NCBI RefSeq assembly: GCF_031180885.1
Contig: NZ_JAPSLK010000032.1
Coordinates: 1-64,000 of the forward strand
Direction of reading: 5' to 3'
DNA from: Saccharothrix sp.
Lineage (GTDB): Bacteria; Actinomycetota; Actinomycetes; Mycobacteriales; Pseudonocardiaceae
Length of the DNA stretch: 64,000 bases
How positions within the stretch are numbered: the stretch's first letter is position 1; every line of letters starts with the position of its first letter. The position numbers and the translations under genes were made by a program. Of this stretch, positions 5,865 to 64,000 are shown piece after piece. Under the pieces are notes generated by a model. The model was not told the DNA's origin, ran no database searches, and saw only the letters and a program-made list of their open reading frames with translations.

Positions 5865-6650
5865 AGGCACCGCGTTCAAGGTCCTCGGCCCGCTGGAGGT
5901 GTGGCACGACGGCGTCCTCGTGCCGGTGCCCGCCGGGCGGTCGCGCGTTGTCCTGGCGTCGTTGTTGCTGTCGGCAACCGGCAGGTGTCGGCGGACACCC
6001 TGGTCGAGCACGTCTGGGACGGCGCCCCGCCGAACCCGGCGCGGGCGCGCGCCTCGCTCCAGAGGGTTGTGACCCGGCTCCGGCAGGCGTTGGGACCCGC
6101 GAACGTGGTGCACGCGAACACGGCCGGCGCGCCGGCCTCCAGTACCCCTGCGCAGCAGCGCTTCGGTGCTGCACCTGCTGGGCCGGTACGAGGAGGCCGT
6201 CGAGCGGTTCGAGAAGGCGTTGGCGATCAGCAGGGAGTTGGCCGACAGCCACGCCGAAGCCACCTGCCTCATGGAACTCGCTGGTCCCTGATCGCGATCG
6301 ACCGGGACGCCGAGGCGACGGAAGCCGCGCGGGAGAGCTGTCGGACGCTGGAGGACCAGGGTGACGCGGTGGCGCTGGCCGAGGCGCTGGTGGTGCTCGG
6401 CGAGATCCACCTCAAGCTCGACCGCGTCGTCGAGGCGTCGACCAGCCTGGAGCGCGCGCTCGACCTGGTGGACGAGACCACGGTCCCGTGGGTCCACGGG
6501 GCGGCGCTGGTCGGGATGGGCGACGTGACCGAACGACAGGGTGATCCGCGGCGGCGCGGCGGCACTGGGAGCAGGCTCTGGTCCGGTACGACCGGGTTGG
6601 ACGCTGTCCGGGCCGATGCCGTGCGGGCGAAGCTGGGGGAGGTCGGGTGA
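5865..6650 (+). pseudogene. SARP remnant: winged helix joined to TPR tail
   Basis: It restarts the DNA-binding domain (TAFKVLGPLEVWHDG at about 5866, then SADTLVEHVWDGAPPNPARA in another frame to about 6120). It then jumps to TPR-type sequence (LLGRYEEAVERFEKALAISR from about 6170). BTAD and NB-ARC are missing and at least two frame changes are needed. The TPR part resembles the C-terminal region of AfsR-like proteins. No start codon or complete frame would give a working product. Confidence 0.7.
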
Positions 6651-7373
6651 CCACCGGGTTCAAGGTCCTGGGACCGCTGGAGGTGTGGCACGACGGCGTC
6701 CGCGTGCCGGTGCCCGCCGGACGGGTGCGGGTGGTGCTTGCGTCCTTGCTGCTGCGGTCCGGTGAGGTCGTGGCGGCCCGACCTCGCTCATGGCGCTGAT
6801 CCGGCGCTGGTGGCTGAACTTCAGGCGTTGACCCGGGCACACGCCCTGCACGAGCCGTTCTGGGCACTTCTCGTCCGCGTCCTGCACCGGACCGGTCGAC
6901 GTGCCGACGCCCTCGCCGCCTACCGGGAAGCCGCGAACCTGCCGGCCCGTGAACTGGACGCGACACCAGGACCGGAATTGCGCGCCGCCCAGGAAATGGT
7001 GTTGCAGGAGGACCACAGCGAGTCGACCACCCTCGTTCCGCGCATCCGCGCCGCGCAGGCGATCGGTGACGTCGAGGGCCAAGTGCGTTTGCGCCGATCA
7101 CTCGGCAGCCACCACCTGGCCATGCGGGAGTTCCCGGAGGCCATCCGCGAGTTGGAGGAGGCGCTGACCCTCGTGGTGTCCACGGGCGACCGCTCCGGCG
7201 AAGCCTTCACTCGTTGGGGACTTGGCGCCACGTTTTGCGAGGCCGGTGATCAAGGCAAGGCTTTGTACCGGGCCCGCCGATCACTCGCGCTCTACACGGA
7301 ACTCGGTGACAGCGAGAAGCGCGCGATCGTCCTGAGCCTGGTCGGCGTCGTCAGCATGGGTGTCGGAGACAGG
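6647..7373 (+). pseudogene. SARP remnant with partial BTAD and TPR
   Basis: GTG 6647 opens TTGFKVLGPLEVWHDG and runs about 50 codons to a stop near 6797. A second frame then carries the end of a BTAD domain (ALHEPFWALLVRVLHRTGRR) and TPR-like helices to about 7370. Most of the winged helix and the first half of BTAD are deleted. It is the fourth member of the array. Confidence 0.7.
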
Positions 7374-7879
7374 GCCGGCTTCCACCCACCTGCCGGCGCT
7401 CGTCGACGAACTGTCCACCGCAGTGGCCGAAGGGTTCCCACTCCTGGCCGTTGTGGGGCCGCCGGGCGCGGGGAAGACCACCCTCGCGGTGCACTGGGCC
7501 CGAACCGTGCGCGGGCGCTATCCCGACGGCACGTTCTTCCTGGACTTTCGCGGTCATCACCCGAAACCCGGTCGACGCGGTGGACGCGGCTCGATCGGTG
7601 CTGGTCGCATGCGGGCTGCCGGTGGAACGGGTGCCGCACGACCCGGAGGAGCGCTTCTCGCTGTACCGCAGCGTGCTGGCCGACCGCAGGGTGCTTCTGG
7701 TGCTGGACGCCGCTCGGGACGCCGATCACGTGCGTCCTCTGCTGCCCGGCACACCTTCGTGTGTTGTCGTGGTCACCAGTAGGCACCAGTCAGTGAGCCT
7801 GGTCGCCACGCACGGTGCCCATCCGATCGCGATCGGCGCACGAGGCGCGGAGATGAGCGATGACGGCGCTCGATCCTGA
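7360..7879 (+). pseudogene. NB-ARC remnant of an AfsR-type regulator
   Basis: It contains a clear nucleotide-binding P-loop (VVGPPGAGKTTLAVHWA, near 7455), a frame change near 7563 and then the Walker B segment (RRVLLVLDAARDADHVRPLL) followed by a CVVVVTSRH-type motif. This is the same order as residues about 280-400 of the intact regulator at 3146-5713. No DNA-binding or TPR part is attached in frame, and it ends just before the Hsp70-like gene. Confidence 0.7.
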
Positions 7880-7925
7880 TATGCATGTGCGTGCACGCCG
7901 ACCCCGGCGGACGAGGGGATGACCG

Positions 7926-9707
7926 ATGAGCCTGCGCGTGGCGGTGGACTTCGGCACGTCCAGCACCTGCGTGGCGATCTCGGTCGACAACCGGGAACCG
8001 CAGGTCGTGGTGGTGGACGGCCAGCCCATCGTGCCCTCCGCCGTGTTCGCCGCCGCCGACGGGACGCTGTTCGTCGGGCAGGAGGCGGAGCGGCAGGCGG
8101 CCGTGGACCCCGCCCGGTACGAGCCCCACCCCAAGCGCCGGGTCGATGAAGGTGAGCTGCTGCTCGGCACGTCGGTGTTGCCGGTGGTCGACGTGGTCCG
8201 GGCCGTGTTGTCGCGGGCGGTGGGTGAGGCTCGGCATGTCGCGGGTGGTGCCCAGGTCGACTTGCTGGTGCTGACCCACCCGGCGGACTGGGGAGCGATC
8301 CGGACTCGGGTGTTGTTGCAGGCCGCGCATCGGCTGGGCCAGGAGGTCCGGCTGGTGCCGGAGCCGGTCGCGGCGGCGGTGTTCCACTCGGCCACGCATG
8401 CGATCGCCGAAGGGGCGGCGTTGGCCGTGCTCGACCTGGGTGGCGGGACGGTGGACGCCAGTGTCGTGGCGCGGTCCGGTGGGACGTTCCGGGTGCTGGC
8501 CACGAAGGGCGATCCGAGTTTTGGTGGCGCGGACATCGATCAGGCGTTGTTGGAGCACATCGGGACGTTGGTCGGGCCCGGTGATCCGGACGCTTGGCGG
8601 CAGCTCGTCGAAGGTCGGGAGATGGCCGACCGGCGCAAGAGGCGGGTATTGCGGCAGGACGTTCGGGGTGCCAAGGAAACGCTTTCGAGGCATTCCTACA
8701 CCGATGTGCCGATGCCGCCGCCATTTCCCGATGCCCATGTGACACGGGCCGACTTGGAACGGTTGATCGACGCGCCGTTGCACCGGGCCGCCGCACTGGT
8801 GACGTCGGTGGTTCGAGACGCGGGGCTTGATCCGCGTGCGCTGGCCGGGGTGTTCCTGGTGGGTGGATCCAGCCGGATTCCGCTGGTCGCGCGGCTCGTG
8901 TTGGAGCAGTCCGGGGTGGTGCCGACCAGCATCGACCAGCCGGAGACGGTGGTCGCCCGGGGCGCGTTGCGTGCGGTCAGCACCGATCCGCTGCGGACCG
9001 GTGCGCTGCCCAGCCAGGGTGATGTCACGCAGAAGATCACGACGGACGACTCGACCCGCAAGATCACTCGGCGGATCACGGCGTCCCCGCCTGGTGGTTT
9101 TTCCCAGCCCGCGTACTTCCCGCAGACCCCGCCACCTGTGCGGAAGAAGAGTCGGGTGCCGCTGGTCGTTGTCGGAGCGGTGCTGCTGCTGGCCGTGATC
9201 GGGGCGTCTGTGGCCTATGCACTGACCCGCAAGGAGAACACGGGCACACCCACGACGACGCCGTCCAGCGCGGCGCAGGGCAAGTTGATCGCGCAGTACG
9301 ACTACACCTTCACCGCGCCCGTCGACTGGACCCAGACCGGTGGCGATCCCAAGAAGCGCGAAGTGCTGCTCAAGCCGGAGGCGCCGGAGTCCCCGCTGGC
9401 CGTGATCGCGGTCAACGAGCAGAAGCTCACATACAACGCGACCGAGGACCGTGCGCGGGCCGAGCGGGAGCTGCGGGACGGGTACGACAAGCGGCAGAAC
9501 GTGTCCGGTTTCGACGCTTCCGCCGACTTCGGGGGCAAGAGTGTCGTTTACTACCGGGAAGAGGCGGAGACCTTCACGGTCGACTGGTACGTGGTGCTCC
9601 AGGGTGACGCCCAGGTGAGCGTCGGGTGCCAGTTCCCGGCTTCCGGTGAGGAGCGGGTCCGCCCGGCGTGCGAGCAGGTGGTCCGCACGCTGACCGTGAC
9701 CAGTTAG
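7926..9707 (+). CDS. Hsp70-like membrane protein, type VII secretion-associated (Rv3446c-type)
   Basis: A 593-residue protein. Residues 1 to about 360 form an Hsp70/actin-like ATPase: phosphate loop VDFGTSSTCVAI near the N-terminus, DLGGGTVDAS near 171 and VGGSSRIPLV near 316. A single membrane helix lies at about 411-434. The exported C-terminal domain (about 450-593) ends with a VSVGCQFP-containing segment. This layout, and the place just before a WXG100 pair and rplM, match the Rv3446c family of the ESX-4 locus (known family; orthology inferred). ATG 7926 follows GAGGGG. The peptide-binding and lid domains of true DnaK are absent, so it is unlikely to be a general chaperone. Its role in secretion is not established. 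Confidence 0.85.
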   Translation: MSLRVAVDFGTSSTCVAISVDNREPQVVVVDGQPIVPSAVFAAADGTLFVGQEAERQAAVDPARYEPHPKRRVDEGELLLGTSVLPVVDVVRAVLSRAVGEARHVAGGAQVDLLVLTHPADWGAIRTRVLLQAAHRLGQEVRLVPEPVAAAVFHSATHAIAEGAALAVLDLGGGTVDASVVARSGGTFRVLATKGDPSFGGADIDQALLEHIGTLVGPGDPDAWRQLVEGREMADRRKRRVLRQDVRGAKETLSRHSYTDVPMPPPFPDAHVTRADLERLIDAPLHRAAALVTSVVRDAGLDPRALAGVFLVGGSSRIPLVARLVLEQSGVVPTSIDQPETVVARGALRAVSTDPLRTGALPSQGDVTQKITTDDSTRKITRRITASPPGGFSQPAYFPQTPPPVRKKSRVPLVVVGAVLLLAVIGASVAYALTRKENTGTPTTTPSSAAQGKLIAQYDYTFTAPVDWTQTGGDPKKREVLLKPEAPESPLAVIAVNEQKLTYNATEDRARAERELRDGYDKRQNVSGFDASADFGGKSVVYYREEAETFTVDWYVVLQGDAQVSVGCQFPASGEERVRPACEQVVRTLTVTS

Positions 9708-10614: not shown

Positions 10615-10694
10615 TCTGCTCCGACTGCTTCGGCAGCTCTTCGCTTTCTGTTTCCGCACGCGCTCGGCACCATTGACTTTTAGGTAGGGGAGAA

Positions 10695-10985
10695 ATGAAC
10701 GACGGCCGTATTGAAGTCAACTTCGGCGAGCTCGCCAACGCCGCGAGCAACATCTCGAGCCAGGCCAGCCAGGTCCAGCAGCAGCTGGACGACTTGAAGC
10801 AGCGCCTCAGCCCGGTCATCGCCCAGTGGCAGGGTGGCGCGTCCGAGGCGTACCAGGAGGCGCAGCGGAAGTGGGACACCTCCGCCGCCGACCTCCAGTC
10901 GGTGCTCGCCTCCATCGGTGTCGCCGTGCAGCAGGCCACCGAGGCCTACGAGGCCGCCGAGAACACGAACCGCGGCCGTTGGTGA
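10695..10985 (+). CDS. esxT: WXG100-family ESX protein, second of pair (EsxT position)
   Basis: A 96-residue protein with a WQG turn (VIAQWQGGASEAY) between two predicted helices. ATG 10695 is preceded by AGGTAGGGGAG. The C-terminal half contains Y-x3-E (YEAAE), close to the Yxxx[D/E] export signal known for type VII substrates. It is probably the heterodimer partner of the preceding gene. A strong hairpin follows, so the secretion genes appear to be transcribed separately from rplM-rpsI. Confidence 0.85.
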   Translation: MNDGRIEVNFGELANAASNISSQASQVQQQLDDLKQRLSPVIAQWQGGASEAYQEAQRKWDTSAADLQSVLASIGVAVQQATEAYEAAENTNRGRW

Positions 10986-11012
10986 ACTGCGCCATCACCG
11001 TGTGACTCTCGC

Positions 11013-11045
11013 GAGACCCCGGGCTCTTCGAAGGCCCGGGGTCTC
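11013..11045 (+). terminator. Hairpin terminator after the WXG100 pair
   Basis: GAGACCCCGGGC (11013-11024) pairs perfectly with 11034-11045 around a 9-base loop. There is no T-run, which is common in high-GC actinobacteria. Confidence 0.75.
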
Positions 11046-11108
11046 GTCCTGTTCGGGCCGCTCCGCGCGGTGTGAACGGGTGTTCCAGGCCGGTGGGCGG
11101 GGGTCGTT

Positions 11109-11138
11109 TTGACCTGGACATGGGCCTACCGGTATCTT
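11109..11138 (+). promoter_or_regulatory. Likely rplM-rpsI promoter
   Basis: TTGACC (11109-11114) and TATCTT (11133-11138) are 18 bp apart, close to the housekeeping -35/-10 pattern. It would give a leader of about 125 bases before the GTG of rplM. A leader of this size could hold ribosomal-protein autoregulation, but no specific structure was identified. Confidence 0.5.
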
Positions 11139-11269
11139 CCTACGTTGTTGTGCGGTACCCGGTGCGCTTCCGCGTGCCTCGTGTTCTGGTCCACCTGCCC
11201 GACTGGGGTGTCTGGAGCCTGAGCAGCCGCCGCAATGACCCCAGACGCAAGTGACGACGAGGTAGACCC

Positions 11270-11713
11270 GTGCGCACGTACAGCCCGAAGCCCGGCGAGG
11301 TGACCCGAGCCTGGCACGTGATCGACGCCCAGGACGTGGTGCTCGGCCGGCTCGCCACCCAGGCCGCGACGCTGCTGCGCGGCAAGCACAAGCCGACTTA
11401 CGCCCCCCACGTTGACACCGGTGACTTCGTCATCATCATCAACGCGGACAAGGTGGCGCTGACCGGCAACAAGCGTGACCAGGAGTTCGTGTACCGGCAC
11501 TCCGGCCACCCGGGCGGTCTTCGCCAGAAGTCGTTCGGCGAGGTGCTCGACACCCGGGCCGACCGGCTGGTCGAGAAGGCCATCAAGGGCATGCTGCCCA
11601 AGAACCGCCTGGGCCGTGTGATCGCCGGCAAGCTCAAGGTCTACACGGGCCCGACCCACCCGCACGCGGCGCAGCAGCCGCAGCCGTTCGAGATCAAGAA
11701 GGTCGCCCAGTGA
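11270..11713 (+). CDS. rplM: 50S ribosomal protein L13
   Basis: A 147-residue protein of normal length for L13. It has [16 protein letters not shown] near the N-terminus, [12 protein letters not shown] in the middle and RAVKGMLPKN-like [12 protein letters not shown] followed by [11 protein letters not shown]. It is an early-assembly protein of the large subunit. The GTG start overlaps nothing upstream. The stop overlaps the GTG of rpsI (GTGA), the usual translational coupling of this conserved pair. Confidence 0.97.
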
Positions 11714-12270
11714 CCGAGCCGTACTCCGAGGAAAACGACGTGACCACCCCTGAGGTCGAGACCGAGGCCGTCGAAGCCGTCGAGGCGGAGACCGCCGTCG
11801 AGTCCGATGTCGACGGTGCCCAGGACGAGGCCGCCGAGCCCGCCCCCGCGCCCGTCGTGCGCCCCGTGCTCAGCGCCGGCGCCCACCACCTCGCGCAGAC
11901 CGTCGGCCGCCGCAAGGAGGCCATCGTCCGCGTGCGCCTGCTGCCCGGCACCGGCAAGTTCACCCTGAACGGGAAGTCCCTCGAGACGTACTTCCCGAAC
12001 AAGGTGCACCAGCAGCTCATCCGCGAGCCCCTGGTGACCACGGAGAAGCCGGAGACGTTCGACGTCATCGCCAACCTCAGCGGCGGCGGCATCACCGGCC
12101 AGGCCGGCGCGCTGCGCCTCGCGATCGCCCGCGCGCTCGTCGCCGTGGACTCCGAGGATCGCCCGGTGCTGAAGAAGGCCGGCTTCCTCACCCGTGACCC
12201 GCGGGTCAAGGAGCGGAAGAAGTACGGTCTCAAGAAGGCCCGCAAGGCGCCTCAGTACAGCAAGCGCTGA
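11710..12270 (+). CDS. rpsI: 30S ribosomal protein S9
   Basis: A 186-residue protein. The S9 domain begins near residue 64 ([16 protein letters not shown]) and ends with the conserved basic tail [10 protein letters not shown], whose last residues reach the ribosomal P site. The first about 60 residues are an acidic Glu/Ala-rich extension, as in other actinobacteria. It starts at GTG 11710, overlapping the rplM stop by four bases. A long hairpin terminator follows. Confidence 0.97.
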
Positions 12271-12296
12271 CCTCGCGGTCGGCACCACAGCACTAC

Positions 12297-12339
12297 CTGC
12301 GGGAGCAGTCAGTTCTTCGTCGAACTGCTGCTCCCGCAG
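12297..12339 (+). terminator. Terminator of rplM-rpsI
   Basis: CTGCGGGAGCAG (12297-12308) pairs with 12328-12339. Inside, CAGTTC (12310-12315) pairs with GAACTG (12322-12327) around TTCGTC. Together they form an 18-bp stem with one bulged base. Confidence 0.85.
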
Positions 12340-12388
12340 TGCTTTCCACCCGATGTTGTGTGGTTGATCACGAAAGGTCATGGCGATC

Positions 12389-13723
12389 ATGGGTCGGCTG
12401 TTCGGCACTGACGGTGTGCGTGGTCTGGCGAATGCGGACCTGACCCCGGAGCTGGCGCTGTCGCTGGCCGCCGCCGCCGCTCGCGTGCTGGCCGAGCACG
12501 ACCGGTCGCACCGGCCGGTCGCCGTCGTCGGGCGCGACCCGCGGGCCAGCGGTGAGATGCTGGAGGCCGCCGTGGTGGCGGGGCTCACGGCGGCGGGCGC
12601 GGACGTGCTGCGGGCGGGCGTGCTGCCGACCCCGGCGGTCGCCTACCTGGTCGCGGCGCTGGGCGCGGACGTCGGTGTGATGATCTCCGCCTCGCACAAC
12701 CCGATGCCGGACAACGGCATCAAGCTGTTCGCGGCGGGCGGGCACAAGCTGCCGGACTCCGTCGAGGACGAGATCGAGCAGAAGCTGGGCGTGCAGGACC
12801 ACCGCCCGACCGGCGCGGGCATCGGCCGCGTCCGGGACGTCGAGGACGCCGAGGGCCAGTACGTGCAGCACCTGCTGAAGGTGACGCCGCACCGCCTGGA
12901 CGGCATCAAGGTCGTCGTGGACTGCGCGAACGGCGCCGCGTCCGTGGCCGCGCCGGACGCCTACCGCCGCGCGGGCGCAGAGGTCGTCGAGATCCACACC
13001 TCGCCGGACGGCCTGAACATCAACGACGGCTGCGGCTCCACCCACCTGGACGAGATCCGCAGGGCCGTCCGAGAGCACGGCGCCGACCTGGGCATCGCGC
13101 ACGACGGCGACGCCGACCGCTGCCTTGCCGTGGATGCGGACGGCAACGAGGTCGACGGCGACCAGATCATGGCGGTCCTGGCGATCGGCATGAAGGAGTC
13201 CGGTGAGCTGACCGACGACACCCTGGTCGCCACCGTGATGAGCAACCTCGGCCTGCACCTGGCGATGCGGGAGCACGGCATCACGCTGCGCACCGCCGCC
13301 GTGGGCGACCGGTACGTGCTGGAGGAGCTGCGGGCCGGCGGGTACGCGCTGGGCGGCGAGCAGTCCGGCCACGTGGTCCTGCCCGCGCACGCCACCACCG
13401 GCGACGGCCTGCTGACCGCGTTGCGCCTGATGTCCCGCATGGCGGAGACCGGCAAGTCGCTGGCCGAGCTGGCGGGCGTGATGCGGCGGCTGCCGCAGGT
13501 GCTGGTCAACGTCGTGGTCGCGGACAAGGCGCGGGTGGCGAAGGACACGGCGGTCAGCGAGGCCGTGGCGGCGGTCGAGGCGGAGCTGGGCGACACCGGC
13601 CGCGTCCTGCTGCGCCCGTCCGGGACGGAGCAGCTCGTCCGGGTGATGGTCGAGGCCCCCACCCACGAACTGGCGGAGTCGGCGGCGCAGCGCCTGGCGG
13701 GTGTGGTTTCCTCGGTGGGCTGA
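12389..13723 (+). CDS. glmM: Phosphoglucosamine mutase
   Basis: It converts glucosamine-6-phosphate to glucosamine-1-phosphate for peptidoglycan precursor synthesis. The 444-residue protein has the phosphoserine loop [13 protein letters not shown] near residue 100, the metal-binding DGDADR and the sugar-binding GGEQSGH. ATG 12389 gives [12 protein letters not shown], the usual GlmM start. An in-frame ATG at 12380 is only two bases from the GAAAGG ribosome site and is less likely. Its place after rpsI and in the same region as glmS is typical of actinobacteria. Confidence 0.96.
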
Positions 13724-13745
13724 TTCTCGACCTCCGGGGGCACCC

Positions 13746-60433: not shown

Positions 60434-61879
60434 ATGGACGCGTTCACCCCGCAGCCACGGCCCTGCTGGATCGCCGGACGTCCGGAGCAGGGCACGGGGG
60501 CCATCACCGTCACCCACCCCTACGACGGCACGGAGGTGGCGTCGGTCGCCGTACCCGGCCCCGACCAGGTGGAACGGGCCGTCGCCGGCGCGGCGGCGGT
60601 GGCCAAGGCATTCCGCCGCACCCCCGCGCACGTCCGCGCGAAGGCCCTCCTGCACGTGTCCCAGACCCTCGCCGAACGCGCCGAGGAGATCGCCGAGACC
60701 ATCACCGCCGAGAACGGCAAGCCGCTCAAGTGGGCGAACATCGAGGTCCAGCGCGCGGTGAACACGTTCCGGTTCGCCGCCGAGGAGGCCCGCCGGTTCA
60801 CCGGCGACCTCCAGCGCCTGGACACCGACGCCAACGGCGAGGGCCGCATGGCGGTGGTCCGCCGGGTCCCGCGCGGCCCGGTGCTCGCGGTCGCCCCGTT
60901 CAACTTCCCGCTCAACCTGGTGGCGCACAAGGTGGCCCCGGCGCTGGCCGTGGGCGCCCCGGTCATCGTGAAACCCGCCTCGGCGACCCCGCTGTCGGCG
61001 TTGCTGCTCGGCGAGGTGCTGGCCGAGGCCGACCTGCCCGAGGGCGCCTTCTCGGTGCTGCCGGTGCGCGGCTCGGACATGAAGTCGCTGGTCACCGACG
61101 AGCGGCTGCCGGTCATCTCGTTCACCGGCTCGACCTCGGTGGGCTGGTCGCTGACCGACAGCGCGCCGCGCAAGCACGTGCTGATGGAGCTGGGGTCCAA
61201 CAGCGCCGCCATCGTGTGCCCGGACTGGCCCGACCTGGGGTGGGCGGCGTCCCGGATCGCGACCTTCGGCAACTACCAGGCCGGCCAGTCGTGCATCGCG
61301 GTCCAGCGGGTGCTGGTGCATCGGGAGGTGGCGGACGAGTTCGTGCCGAAGCTGGTGGCGGCGGTGCGGGCGTTGAAGACCGGCGACCCGCACGACCCGG
61401 AGGTCGAGGTCGGCCCGCTCATCGACGAGGACAACGCCCGCCGGGTCGAGGAGTGGATCTCCGAAGCCGTGTCCGGTGGCGCGGTCCTGCACGTCGGCGG
61501 CGGCCGGAAGGGCACCTCGATCGAGCCCGCCGTGCTGCAGGACGTGCCGGCGGAGGCCCGGTTGTGGCACCAGGAGGTCTTCGGGCCGGTGCTGGCGGTG
61601 TCCGTGGTGGAGTCGGTCGGGGAGGCGTTCGCGCAGGCCAACGCCACCGAGTACGGCTTGCAGGCGGGTGTGTTCACCCGTGACGTGACGGTGGCGTTCG
61701 AGGCGGCGGCCGAGCTGGAAGTCGGCGGCGTGATCATCGGCGACGTGCCGTCGTACCGGGCGGACCAGATGCCTTACGGCGGCGTGAAGGGGTCGGGGAC
61801 CGGGCGGGAGGGGGTGCGTTCGGCGATGGAGGACTTCACCGAGGAACGCACCATGGTCCTGACCGGCATCACCCTCTGA
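60434..61879 (+). CDS. NAD(P)-dependent aldehyde dehydrogenase
   Basis: A 481-residue ALDH-superfamily enzyme. It has cofactor-binding APFNFPLNLVAHKVAPAL near residue 150 and ISFTGSTSVGW near 232. The catalytic Glu is in LMELGSNSAAIV, the nucleophile Cys in NYQAGQSCIAVQRV near 285, and EVFGPVLAV follows. ATG 60434 is chosen because it fits a leaderless promoter; a GTG 9 bases upstream is less likely. It is closest in style to succinate-semialdehyde/lactaldehyde-type dehydrogenases, but substrate cannot be assigned. Its stop directly abuts the stop of the opposing kinase gene. Confidence 0.88.
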   Translation: MDAFTPQPRPCWIAGRPEQGTGAITVTHPYDGTEVASVAVPGPDQVERAVAGAAAVAKAFRRTPAHVRAKALLHVSQTLAERAEEIAETITAENGKPLKWANIEVQRAVNTFRFAAEEARRFTGDLQRLDTDANGEGRMAVVRRVPRGPVLAVAPFNFPLNLVAHKVAPALAVGAPVIVKPASATPLSALLLGEVLAEADLPEGAFSVLPVRGSDMKSLVTDERLPVISFTGSTSVGWSLTDSAPRKHVLMELGSNSAAIVCPDWPDLGWAASRIATFGNYQAGQSCIAVQRVLVHREVADEFVPKLVAAVRALKTGDPHDPEVEVGPLIDEDNARRVEEWISEAVSGGAVLHVGGGRKGTSIEPAVLQDVPAEARLWHQEVFGPVLAVSVVESVGEAFAQANATEYGLQAGVFTRDVTVAFEAAAELEVGGVIIGDVPSYRADQMPYGGVKGSGTGREGVRSAMEDFTEERTMVLTGITL

Positions 61880-63151
61880 TCAAGCGACCCGTTCCGAAGA
61901 GATGATCTGGAGGTGGTCGTCCACCGGCCGCACCCGCAGCCGGTAGGTCTCCACGGACTGCGCGGACCCCTGCACGAAGGCCAACTCCACGTCCGCGGTG
62001 AACACGTCGTCCTCGCGCAGGACACCGACGCTCGTCACGTGGACGTTGTCGTAGGCCACCCAGAACCGGGTGTAGTCGGGCAGGTCCGGCCGGAAGTCGG
62101 GGGAGAGGTTCTCCCAGGCCAGCGACGGGTCGTTGGTCACCTGCGCGTAGTGGGCGCGGATGAAGTCGACCACCGCCTGGTCGTCGAACAGCGGCGGGGC
62201 GACCTGGACGTCGCTCTGCGCCGGCGGCGGGCCGGTCACCGAAGGTTCGGCGGTCAGGGAGGCGGCGGCGATCGCGCCGGCGGCCACCACCAGGATCGCC
62301 GTGGCGATGGCGGGCGCCATCCAGCCCGGCCGGGGGCGGTCGACCGGGGGGTTCGCCAGCAGGTCCGCGGCGTCGGCGGCGGACGGGCGTTCGGCGGGGT
62401 CGCCGGCCAGCAGCCGGGAGATCACACCGGACAGCGGACCCGGTGCGGGCGGGTCGATGTCGCCTTTGGCCGCCTTGTACAGCAGCGCCAGGCTGTTCTC
62501 GGTCGCCCCGTAGGGCGGTCGGCCCTCGGTGGCCGCGTACAGGGTCGCGCCCAGCGAGAAGACGTCGGCGGCGGTCCCCGGCTGTTCGCCGCGCGCCACC
62601 TCGGGAGCCAGGTACGCGGGGGTGCCGGTGATCATGCCGGTGTCGGTGAGGGTGCCGTCGTTCACCGAGCGGGAGATGCCGAAATCGGTCAGCTTCACCG
62701 CGCCGTCGTGGCCGATGAGGACGTTGGACGGCTTCACGTCGCGGTGGACGATGCCCGCCGCGTGCGCCGCGGCCAGCGCCGCCGCCACGTGGCCGCCGAT
62801 GCGGGCCGCCTCCGCGTGGTCCAGCGCGCCGCGCTCCACCAGCAGCTCGGCCAGGCTGCGTGCGGGCACGTACTCCATGACCAACCAGGGCCGGTCGTCC
62901 TCGACCACCACGTCGAACACCGCGACGGCGTTCGGGTGGTGCAGCCGGGCCGCGTTGCGCGCCTCGCGCAGCGCCCGGGCCCCGGCCACCCGGGCCTCGT
63001 CGGGCGTCAGGTCGGGCCAGCGGAGCTGCTTGACGGCCACCTCGCGGTCCAGCAGCGCGTCGAGCGCCCGCCAGACGACGCCCATGGCGCCGCTGCCGAC
63101 CCGCTCGACCAGCGCGTACCGACCGCCGACCGCAGCCCCCGACTCGTGCAC
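61880..63151 (-). CDS. Membrane Ser/Thr protein kinase (PknB type)
   Basis: A 423-residue Hanks-type kinase. It has the glycine loop RVGSGAMGVVW, Lys in EVAVKQLRW, the catalytic loop VHRDVKPSNVLI near 137, DFGISRS and GTPAYLAPEVARGE. A membrane helix lies at about 277-300 (PAIATAILVVAAGAIAAASL). The extracellular part is about 120 residues with no PASTA repeats. GTG 63151 is the start. It ends on the base after the aldehyde dehydrogenase stop. It follows an SsgB-like gene, which hints at a role in cell division or sporulation control (inference). Confidence 0.9.
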   Translation of the reverse strand: MHESGAAVGGRYALVERVGSGAMGVVWRALDALLDREVAVKQLRWPDLTPDEARVAGARALREARNAARLHHPNAVAVFDVVVEDDRPWLVMEYVPARSLAELLVERGALDHAEAARIGGHVAAALAAAHAAGIVHRDVKPSNVLIGHDGAVKLTDFGISRSVNDGTLTDTGMITGTPAYLAPEVARGEQPGTAADVFSLGATLYAATEGRPPYGATENSLALLYKAAKGDIDPPAPGPLSGVISRLLAGDPAERPSAADAADLLANPPVDRPRPGWMAPAIATAILVVAAGAIAAASLTAEPSVTGPPPAQSDVQVAPPLFDDQAVVDFIRAHYAQVTNDPSLAWENLSPDFRPDLPDYTRFWVAYDNVHVTSVGVLREDDVFTADVELAFVQGSAQSVETYRLRVRPVDDHLQIISSERVA

Positions 63152-63173
63152 GGGAGGAGGGTAGCGACCGGGC

Positions 63174-63584
63174 TCAGTTGGTCGAGACGAGCTTGGCCAA
63201 CTCGCGGTCGAAGTCGATCCACAGGTCCTCCTCGCCGGGCTGGACCACGTCGTAGGTGAGGTCCAGGAACTCGGCGATGTCCTCGGCCTGGGCGGACAGG
63301 ATCGCGAACCCGGTCGGCGCGTTCAGCTCCAGCAGGACCCGCTCCGGGTCGTCGGCGGCCGGGCGGACCAGGATGTCGCCCTCTCCGGACGCGGTCAGCA
63401 GGCCGTCGGCCAGCAGGTCGCGGGCGAAGATCCACTCGACCTTGCCCTGCCCGGTGTGGAACAGGACGGCGACCGCGTACGGGTCCTCCGGTTCGTAGTG
63501 CAGCTCGGCTTCCACCGGGGCCGGCGGGACGCCGGGGACCAGGAGGTGGAACGTCGTCGTGGTGGTGATGCTCTCGGCGCTCAT
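63174..63584 (-). CDS. SsgA/SsgB-like sporulation and cell-division regulator (SALP)
   Basis: A 136-residue protein with the SALP pattern: LHYEPEDPYAVAVLFHTGQG, VEWIFARDLLADGLL and an acidic end (DLWIDFDRELAKLV). Length and motifs resemble SsgB, which positions FtsZ during sporulation-specific division in Streptomyces. ATG 63584 follows AAGGGA on its strand. It lies 22 bases before the Ser/Thr kinase on the same strand, so cotranscription is likely. Its presence supports a filamentous, sporulating or fragmenting actinomycete. Confidence 0.9.
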   Translation of the reverse strand: MSAESITTTTTFHLLVPGVPPAPVEAELHYEPEDPYAVAVLFHTGQGKVEWIFARDLLADGLLTASGEGDILVRPAADDPERVLLELNAPTGFAILSAQAEDIAEFLDLTYDVVQPGEEDLWIDFDRELAKLVSTN

Positions 63585-63684
63585 GGCTGTGGGATTCCCT
63601 TCTCGGTTCGACCCTCTCAGGAGAGGAGACGTCCGGAAAGGTGAATCGGGACGTGGTTCGCCTGAACACCACGCGATCGGGGGA

Positions 63685-63701
63685 GACCTGCGTCGCAGGT
63701 C
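63685..63701. other. Short hairpin in the ssgB-like upstream region
   Basis: GACCTGC (63685-63691) pairs with GCAGGTC (63695-63701) around GTC. It may help terminate the transporter transcript or act as an operator. Confidence 0.4.
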
Positions 63702-63747
63702 CACCCGTTTGCCCACACCGCCCGTCTCAACTGGCCGTACCGGCGAG

Positions 63748-63760
63748 TAACACAGTGTTA
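63748..63760. promoter_or_regulatory. 13-bp palindrome next to the transporter 3' end
   Basis: TAACAC-A-GTGTTA is a perfect palindrome. It is one of the few AT-rich spots here and could be an operator for the leftward ssgB-like gene or part of a transporter terminator. Confidence 0.4.
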
Positions 63761-63767
63761 TCGCAGG

Positions 63768-64000
63768 TCACTTGAGCGTAGTCACGGGCTCCTTCTGGGG
63801 CGGGACGATCGCCGTCGCGGGCTGCTTGCGGGTAAGCCCGACGCCCACGAGGACCACGACCATGCCCAGCACGACCCGGAGGTTGAGGTCCTCGCCCAGG
63901 AACGCGGCCCCGAGCAGGACCGACACCACGGGCAGCAGGTAGCCGACCGTCGTGGCGTTCGTCGGGCCCTCGTCCTCGACGATCCGGTAGTTGATGATGA
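63768..64000 (-). CDS. DMT-superfamily (EamA) transporter, C-terminal part, truncated by the window edge
   Basis: The last about 77 codons of a leftward gene whose start is outside the window. They read INYRIVEDEGPTNATTVGYL, then LPVVSVLLGAAFLGEDLNLR and VVLGMVVVLVGVGLTRK, followed by a short polar tail ending in TGA (63768-63770). The two hydrophobic helices and the LLPVVSVLLGAAFLGE segment are typical of the last repeat of EamA/DMT metabolite exporters. The substrate is unknown. Confidence 0.8.
   Translation of the reverse strand, partial: IINYRIVEDEGPTNATTVGYLLPVVSVLLGAAFLGEDLNLRVVLGMVVVLVGVGLTRKQPATAIVPPQKEPVTTLK

Follow-up and report, generated by a model that had tools for sequence, protein, structure and literature searches.

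The window, by which we mean the whole stretch of 64,000 nucleotides of DNA analysed, comes from Saccharothrix, a member of the Pseudonocardiaceae. Near its end lie a gene for an SsgA-like protein (SALP) and, 22 bp downstream and also on the minus strand, a gene for a membrane Ser/Thr kinase. The features of the locus are as follows.

61880..63151, minus strand: membrane Ser/Thr kinase, 423 aa (GTG at 63151, stop at 61880), beginning 22 bp after the SALP stop
61889..62182, minus strand: predicted NTF2-like domain of the kinase, residues 324-421, taken as extracytoplasmic
62255..62320, minus strand: predicted helix of the kinase, residues 278-299, taken from its sequence as transmembrane
62369..63118, minus strand: kinase domain, residues 12-261 (PF00069)
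63158..63163, minus strand: TACCCT, a -10 box of the form TANNNT, 6 nt upstream of the kinase GTG (12 nt counted from its first T), putative leaderless promoter
63174..63584, minus strand: SALP (SsgA/SsgB family, PF04686), 136 aa (ATG at 63584, stop at 63174), an SsgB-related paralogue and presumptive orthologue of Actinosynnema pretiosum ssgA_6663
63585..63766, minus strand: non-coding leader of the SALP gene, downstream of the EamA transporter gene, putative SALP promoter region
63597..63602, minus strand: SD-like GAAGGG before the SALP ATG, spacing 12 nt

Beyond the kinase, a convergent aldehyde dehydrogenase gene ends at 61879, followed by guaA; the kinase and dehydrogenase genes abut stop to stop at 61879/61880. 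Upstream of the SALP gene are an EamA transporter gene, a LysR regulator gene and then, just past the window end, two Ser/Thr kinase genes. In locus L035 these two kinase genes stand in tandem at 10659-13725. The order cluster kinases, LysR, EamA, SALP is kept in the loci examined, local inversions aside. In the window's genome, the segment with guaA and the dehydrogenase has the opposite orientation to that in relatives such as G016, with the breakpoint just after the kinase; in L039 (genome G009), by comparison with other genomes, it is the LysR-EamA-SALP block that is flipped with respect to the guaA side and the cluster kinases. In L087 (Umezawaea endophytica), two tandem kinases follow the SALP gene, at approximately 6425-9222.

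The SALP product scores 106 bits against the Pfam family PF04686 (SsgA; cut-off 25) and covers positions 1-98 of the 98 in the profile, a whole-domain match above the curated cut-off that places it in the SsgA-like family. Its neighbour scores 170 bits against PF00069 (Pkinase; cut-off 31.7, Pfam). The gene families, the strand and the 22-base spacing given by an earlier sequence-only reading are thereby borne out, with exact coordinates. That reading had also called the first protein SsgB-like. Its place in the SALP family stands; the SsgB-type protein of this organism is, most likely, another one. Two SALPs are found in the source genome at E<=0.001, the window copy and a copy on contig C40, and they are 54% identical. 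The C40 SALP is the family-wide one, being 78-96% identical across the seven other genomes compared. In a FastTree tree of 63 SALPs (75 sequences less one duplicate and 11 near-identical SALPs), the window type forms a single clade (local support 0.997) within a larger one (0.998) that also contains the C40 type and six further sequences.

Comparison with solved structures is less uniform. PDB 3cm1, which we take to be the SsgB of T. fusca, matches both proteins about equally well (102.2 bits for the window SALP and 100.5 for the C40 SALP), and this equality speaks against the paralogue assignment. PDB 6slc scores 113.6 bits with the C40 SALP and 85.9 bits with the window SALP. Over the 124 residues used, 6slc is 97.6-100% identical to the best-matching SALP in each of 13 genomes of one genus, which have 3-10 SALP matches each. 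This near-identity agrees with the statement, in a section of PMC3814722, that streptomycete SsgB orthologues hardly vary; we infer that this genus is Streptomyces and that the protein of 6slc, entered as SsgA, is SsgB. On sequence grounds, the window SALP is most probably an SsgB paralogue, and the C40 SALP looks like the SsgB orthologue. Identity of the window SALP with SsgB itself was rejected, since the C40 protein is the family-wide type and the window type has its own clade. The SsgD equivalog NF052496 was likewise rejected (94.7 bits, below the cut-off of 185), and three weak pieces of match to the WD-repeat protein PkwA, of 4-11 bits, were taken as chance.

All 25 genomes of the genus, the window's own included, have the window-type SALP, at an identity of at least 92%. 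The taxa at 38 loci with this type are Saccharothrix, Actinosynnema, Umezawaea and Lentzea; one of the 38 carries the name Nocardia sp. NRRL S-836. The leader of the gene is also conserved. A core, CTCCCCC[AG] (window 63679-63686), is kept in 50/50 loci with a placeable SALP start, that is, in all of the 51 except L101, whose start was not placed. The segment 63585..63766 is the probable SALP promoter region. Between the EamA stop and the SALP gene, at window 63748-63760, lies a perfect 13-bp inverted repeat, TAACACAGTGTTA, which is partly kept in relatives.

The downstream gene encodes a Hanks-type Ser/Thr kinase. Hanks-type kinases use a lysine and the HRD, asparagine and DFG motifs in catalysis, and the corresponding K41, HRD 136-138, N143 and DFG 156-158 are invariant in 32/32 aligned sequences (an alignment smaller than the full set of 42 retained kinases described below); the protein thus has the lysine, HRD and DFG that define the type. 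The hydrophobic helix at residues 278-299 probably crosses the membrane. No PASTA family matched the kinase at E<=0.001, and a PASTA kinase identity was rejected because NF033483 stays below its cut-off (246 of 450 bits) and aligns over residues 5-259 only. The description of the protein as a membrane kinase with a non-PASTA outer domain therefore holds, with the membrane helix as a prediction.

Compared with the PDB, a structure model of the ectodomain (pLDDT 93.6) comes closest to a designed NTF2 fold (TM 0.73, E 4e-4). The first seven matches include an NTF2-like protein, Bd1075 and the NTF2 domain of RsgI9; many of the matches listed are NTF2-like, and only three reach E<=0.001. The model thus predicts an NTF2-like ectodomain. 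By sequence, no Pfam NTF2 family matched, and a search for solved relatives gave 0 at E<=1. Other Pfam families gave nothing for the window member and scattered weak matches in a few of 26 others. The domain varies widely: the copies of 26 relatives are 19-33% identical to that of the window (the SALP has 79-99% in 8). An ectodomain-only search of 60 relatives matched its own genome and G016 and nothing else; since the domain is too variable for such a search, this is no evidence of absence. Its relatives are found close by. The C-terminal domain of the nearer cluster kinase is related to the window ectodomain (E 7e-6), as is a domain of a membrane protein encoded in the cluster (E 2e-6); a control stretch gave 0.52. 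The two cluster kinases are the best-scoring matches of the window kinase within its own genome. A kinase on contig C62 was considered as sharing the ectodomain and set aside (E 0.18).

The two genes begin in different ways. According to passages in PMC3160421, leaderless genes carry TANNNT about 12 bp before the start codon, and PMC3898074 has the same -10 signal centred 7-12 bp before transcription starts. In 42/42 retained kinases, which are related sequences and so do not amount to 42 independent trials, the start is a GTG and a TANNNT box ends 6-8 nt upstream of it, with the first T 12-14 nt upstream. An SD-like core before the kinase is found in 0/42, so that both sequence marks of a leaderless gene are there in every case. 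The box precedes other GTG triplets of the same loci in 24 of 11240 cases (0.2%), and the starts of the sister cluster kinases in 0/27 and 0/15, these being the starts located by motif search among 50 loci. SALP starts show the reverse, with TANNNT in 0/49 and an SD-like core in 49/49 (L105 left out, L101 not placed). A slightly larger set of SD words was used for SALP starts than for kinase starts; the added words are, by eye, absent from the kinase leaders. For L105, in which a contig end cuts the kinase, the kinase start was placed by hand in the box and gap counts, and the second tandem kinase of U. endophytica lies outside the start counts. This signature suggests that the kinase has its own leaderless promoter at its GTG. 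Separate promoters, together with no effect of the kinase on division, were what the sequence-only reading had named as telling against its proposal, and at the level of the DNA sequence the two starts do differ in this way.

The spacing of the genes points in the same direction. Outside Lentzea, 21-37 bp separate the genes in the 19 loci that have the kinase. Of the 23 Lentzea-type loci, one has a gap of 9 bp, 14 have gaps of 159-346 bp and eight have gaps of 677-1161 bp; every one of them, even at the widest gaps, keeps the box next to the kinase. The claim that the SALP and kinase genes form one operon thus lacks support, though some read-through may occur. In L109, two overlapping opposite-strand genes (116 and 162 aa) lie between SALP and kinase, at 6548-7383, and the long gaps of L091, L092, L094, L097, L098, L099 and L111 hold similar stretches, some of them apparently broken (by eye). 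The inserted pair looks like the toxin-antitoxin type; assignment to a named family failed, one protein having no Pfam match and the 162-aa one matching DUF6247 below the cut-off.

We consider it quite probable that SALP and kinase are two conserved neighbours and not one operon. Some observations stand against this view. The gap of 21-37 bp outside Lentzea allows co-transcription, and a scan of 61700-64000 found no terminator, with a consensus poorly suited to this GC content; read-through from SALP into kinase is thus possible in Saccharothrix. The -10 box is itself a reading of the sequence, and a sigma-70 scan of 61700-64000 found no promoter, with a consensus stricter than TANNNT. Finally, the pairing is kept more often than a useless neighbour needs, as follows.

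The comparison set has 51 distinct genomes, 25 of the genus and 26 more (S. coeruleofusca, two Umezawaea and 23 Lentzea-type loci); 12 further loci belong to genomes already among the 25 and were not counted twice. A same-strand kinase follows the window-type SALP in 42/51, and the pairing is not chance. In the other nine (G023, G009, G010, G006, G013, G011, G004, G018 and U. beigongshangensis), no such kinase lies within some 6-8 kb of the SALP gene on either side. On a flanking-gene tree of 50 genomes (IQ-TREE; L105 left out, G020 represented by three of the five genes in the stretch compared, and some nodes weak, one at 39%), Fitch and Dollo reconstructions both give six losses of the adjacent kinase. 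G010 retains a clear decayed kinase remnant, and G023 and G009 have shorter degenerate stretches (by eye). Within the genus, SALP identity to the window copy comes to 92-97% for the eight genomes that lack the kinase, and to 93-99% for the remaining 16. By ungapped count, the SALPs of 9/9 kinase-less genomes retain the two Thr residues preceding F12, and those of 8/9 retain T7, which is Ser in U. beigongshangensis.

These losses bear on the proposal that the two genes form an operon whose kinase phosphorylates the SALP, or partners on the FtsZ side, upon an envelope signal. Besides the shared strand, the 22-bp gap and the pairing in 42/51 genomes, this proposal can point to the Thr-rich N-terminus of the SALP, in which T7, T10 and T11 are invariant in 9/9 aligned sequences, and to precedent, since parts of PMC9823044 list FtsZ among the proteins phosphorylated by PkaE and describe modulation of DivIVA activity by AfsK. 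The kinase's own leaderless signature argues against it, as do the 159-1161 bp between the genes in 22/23 Lentzea-type loci and about six kinase losses that leave the SALP little changed and its N-terminal Thr residues mostly in place. The divergence of the ectodomain, set beside the conservation of the SALP, counts against it as well. Phosphorylation of the SALP by this kinase is possible, but nothing supports it specifically, and we judge the operon with its signalling pair unlikely.

A looser partnership has somewhat better prospects. Both genes might serve envelope or hyphal morphogenesis, with occasional read-through helping and no direct phosphorylation. What speaks most for a role in common is that 42 of the 51 genomes have retained the kinase, and the conserved order of cluster kinases, LysR, EamA and SALP can be cited beside it. 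The whole LysR-EamA-SALP block is also syntenic, however, so gene order alone is weak evidence, and the frequent kinase losses weigh against a partnership of this kind too. We hold it to be a possible, though doubtful, account. Since the kinase seems to have a promoter of its own and is often lost, the two genes are probably just ordinary neighbours and not a functional unit.

Further information on the SALP comes from A. pretiosum, which has ssgA_6663 and ssgB_2072, as reported in sections of PMC9687425. A mutant deleted for ssgA_6663 has short aerial hyphae and a dispersed mycelium, and the promoter of the gene is bound by AdpA at the site TGGCCGGAAC, according to the same sections (PMC9687425). 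This site lies 78-79 bp upstream of the window-type SALP gene in 3/3 Actinosynnema-clade genomes. In one of these genomes, an exact-word search gave it as the only match in 16 kb, and in the two tested, it was not found in the 1.1 kb around the other SALP gene. The clade has two SALPs per genome, at chromosome positions matching the A. pretiosum genes, approximately 7.5-7.7 and 2.2 Mb of 8.1-8.2 Mb in two single-contig genomes. From the positions and the AdpA site, we infer that the window SALP is orthologous to ssgA_6663. With this orthology and the mutant phenotype, the likely orthologue of the window SALP serves hyphal morphology in a clade that has no kinase next to it.

The AdpA consensus TGGCSNGWWY occurs about 79 bp before the SALP gene in 5/9 kinase-less genomes and in 0/41 kinase-bearing genomes with a placeable SALP start. 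The five loci (L039, L042, L049, L050 and L051) have it at the same place in the conserved leader. They belong to two lineages, both kinase-less (G009 with G010, and the Actinosynnema clade), so the association is weak and was made after the fact. One could read this as a regulatory swap, in which the kinase would serve as an auxiliary brake or trigger for the morphogenesis that the SALP drives and some lineages without it would have put the SALP gene under AdpA instead; we regard this as very improbable.

To return to the two-neighbour view, we propose the following arrangement. The SALP would be a lineage-specific SsgB paralogue that, like other SALPs, most likely marks or recruits cell-wall and division machinery in hyphae; its family and phylogeny come from the comparisons above, and this role is taken from the A. 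pretiosum ssgA_6663 mutant. It would be driven by its own conserved upstream region and an SD-led start. The kinase is related to the local cluster of receptor-type Ser/Thr kinases about 2 kb upstream, and would be transcribed mainly from its own leaderless promoter beginning at the GTG, a transcription start deduced from the observed signature. Read-through from the SALP gene may occur but would not be needed. The predicted NTF2-like outer domain probably binds an envelope ligand or dimerises and thereby switches on the Hanks-type kinase; the SALP need not be among the targets of that kinase. The safest reading of the neighbourhood is that it is inherited, ordinary and made of known kinds of genes.

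It follows from this view that close, conserved, same-strand actinomycete genes may be separate units if the downstream gene starts leaderless. The analysis also sets the SALP paralogue of Saccharothrix, Actinosynnema, Umezawaea and Lentzea apart from SsgB, and the natural kinase-loss strains offer a place to test the kinase-SALP question. Among the papers listed by the literature searches, none was seen to treat a SALP with a kinase next to it.

Compared with known systems, the window SALP is a full-length family member (102 bits to 3cm1 and 86 to 6slc), yet is most likely distinct from SsgB, sharing 54% identity with the SsgB-type SALP of its genome and belonging to a separate clade (0.997). 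The ssgA_6663 clade has no kinase beside the SALP in 3/3 genomes, whereas the window SALP has one, and the AdpA consensus upstream of the Actinosynnema-clade SALP is absent upstream of the window SALP gene. The site is called reversed in the relevant section of PMC9687425, whereas in our analysis it runs in the SALP's own direction. The window kinase shares the Hanks-type domain of the PASTA kinases PknB and StkP, to which NF033483 aligns over residues 5-259, but has no PASTA match and stays below the equivalog cut-off. It also resembles the Ser/Thr kinases with NTF2-like extracellular domains described in excerpts of PMC3924330, in which small-ligand binding is thought likely: like them, it has an intracellular kinase domain and, by prediction, a membrane helix and an outer NTF2-like domain. 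Unlike a Pfam-assigned NTF2 domain, that of the window kinase is assigned by its predicted fold.
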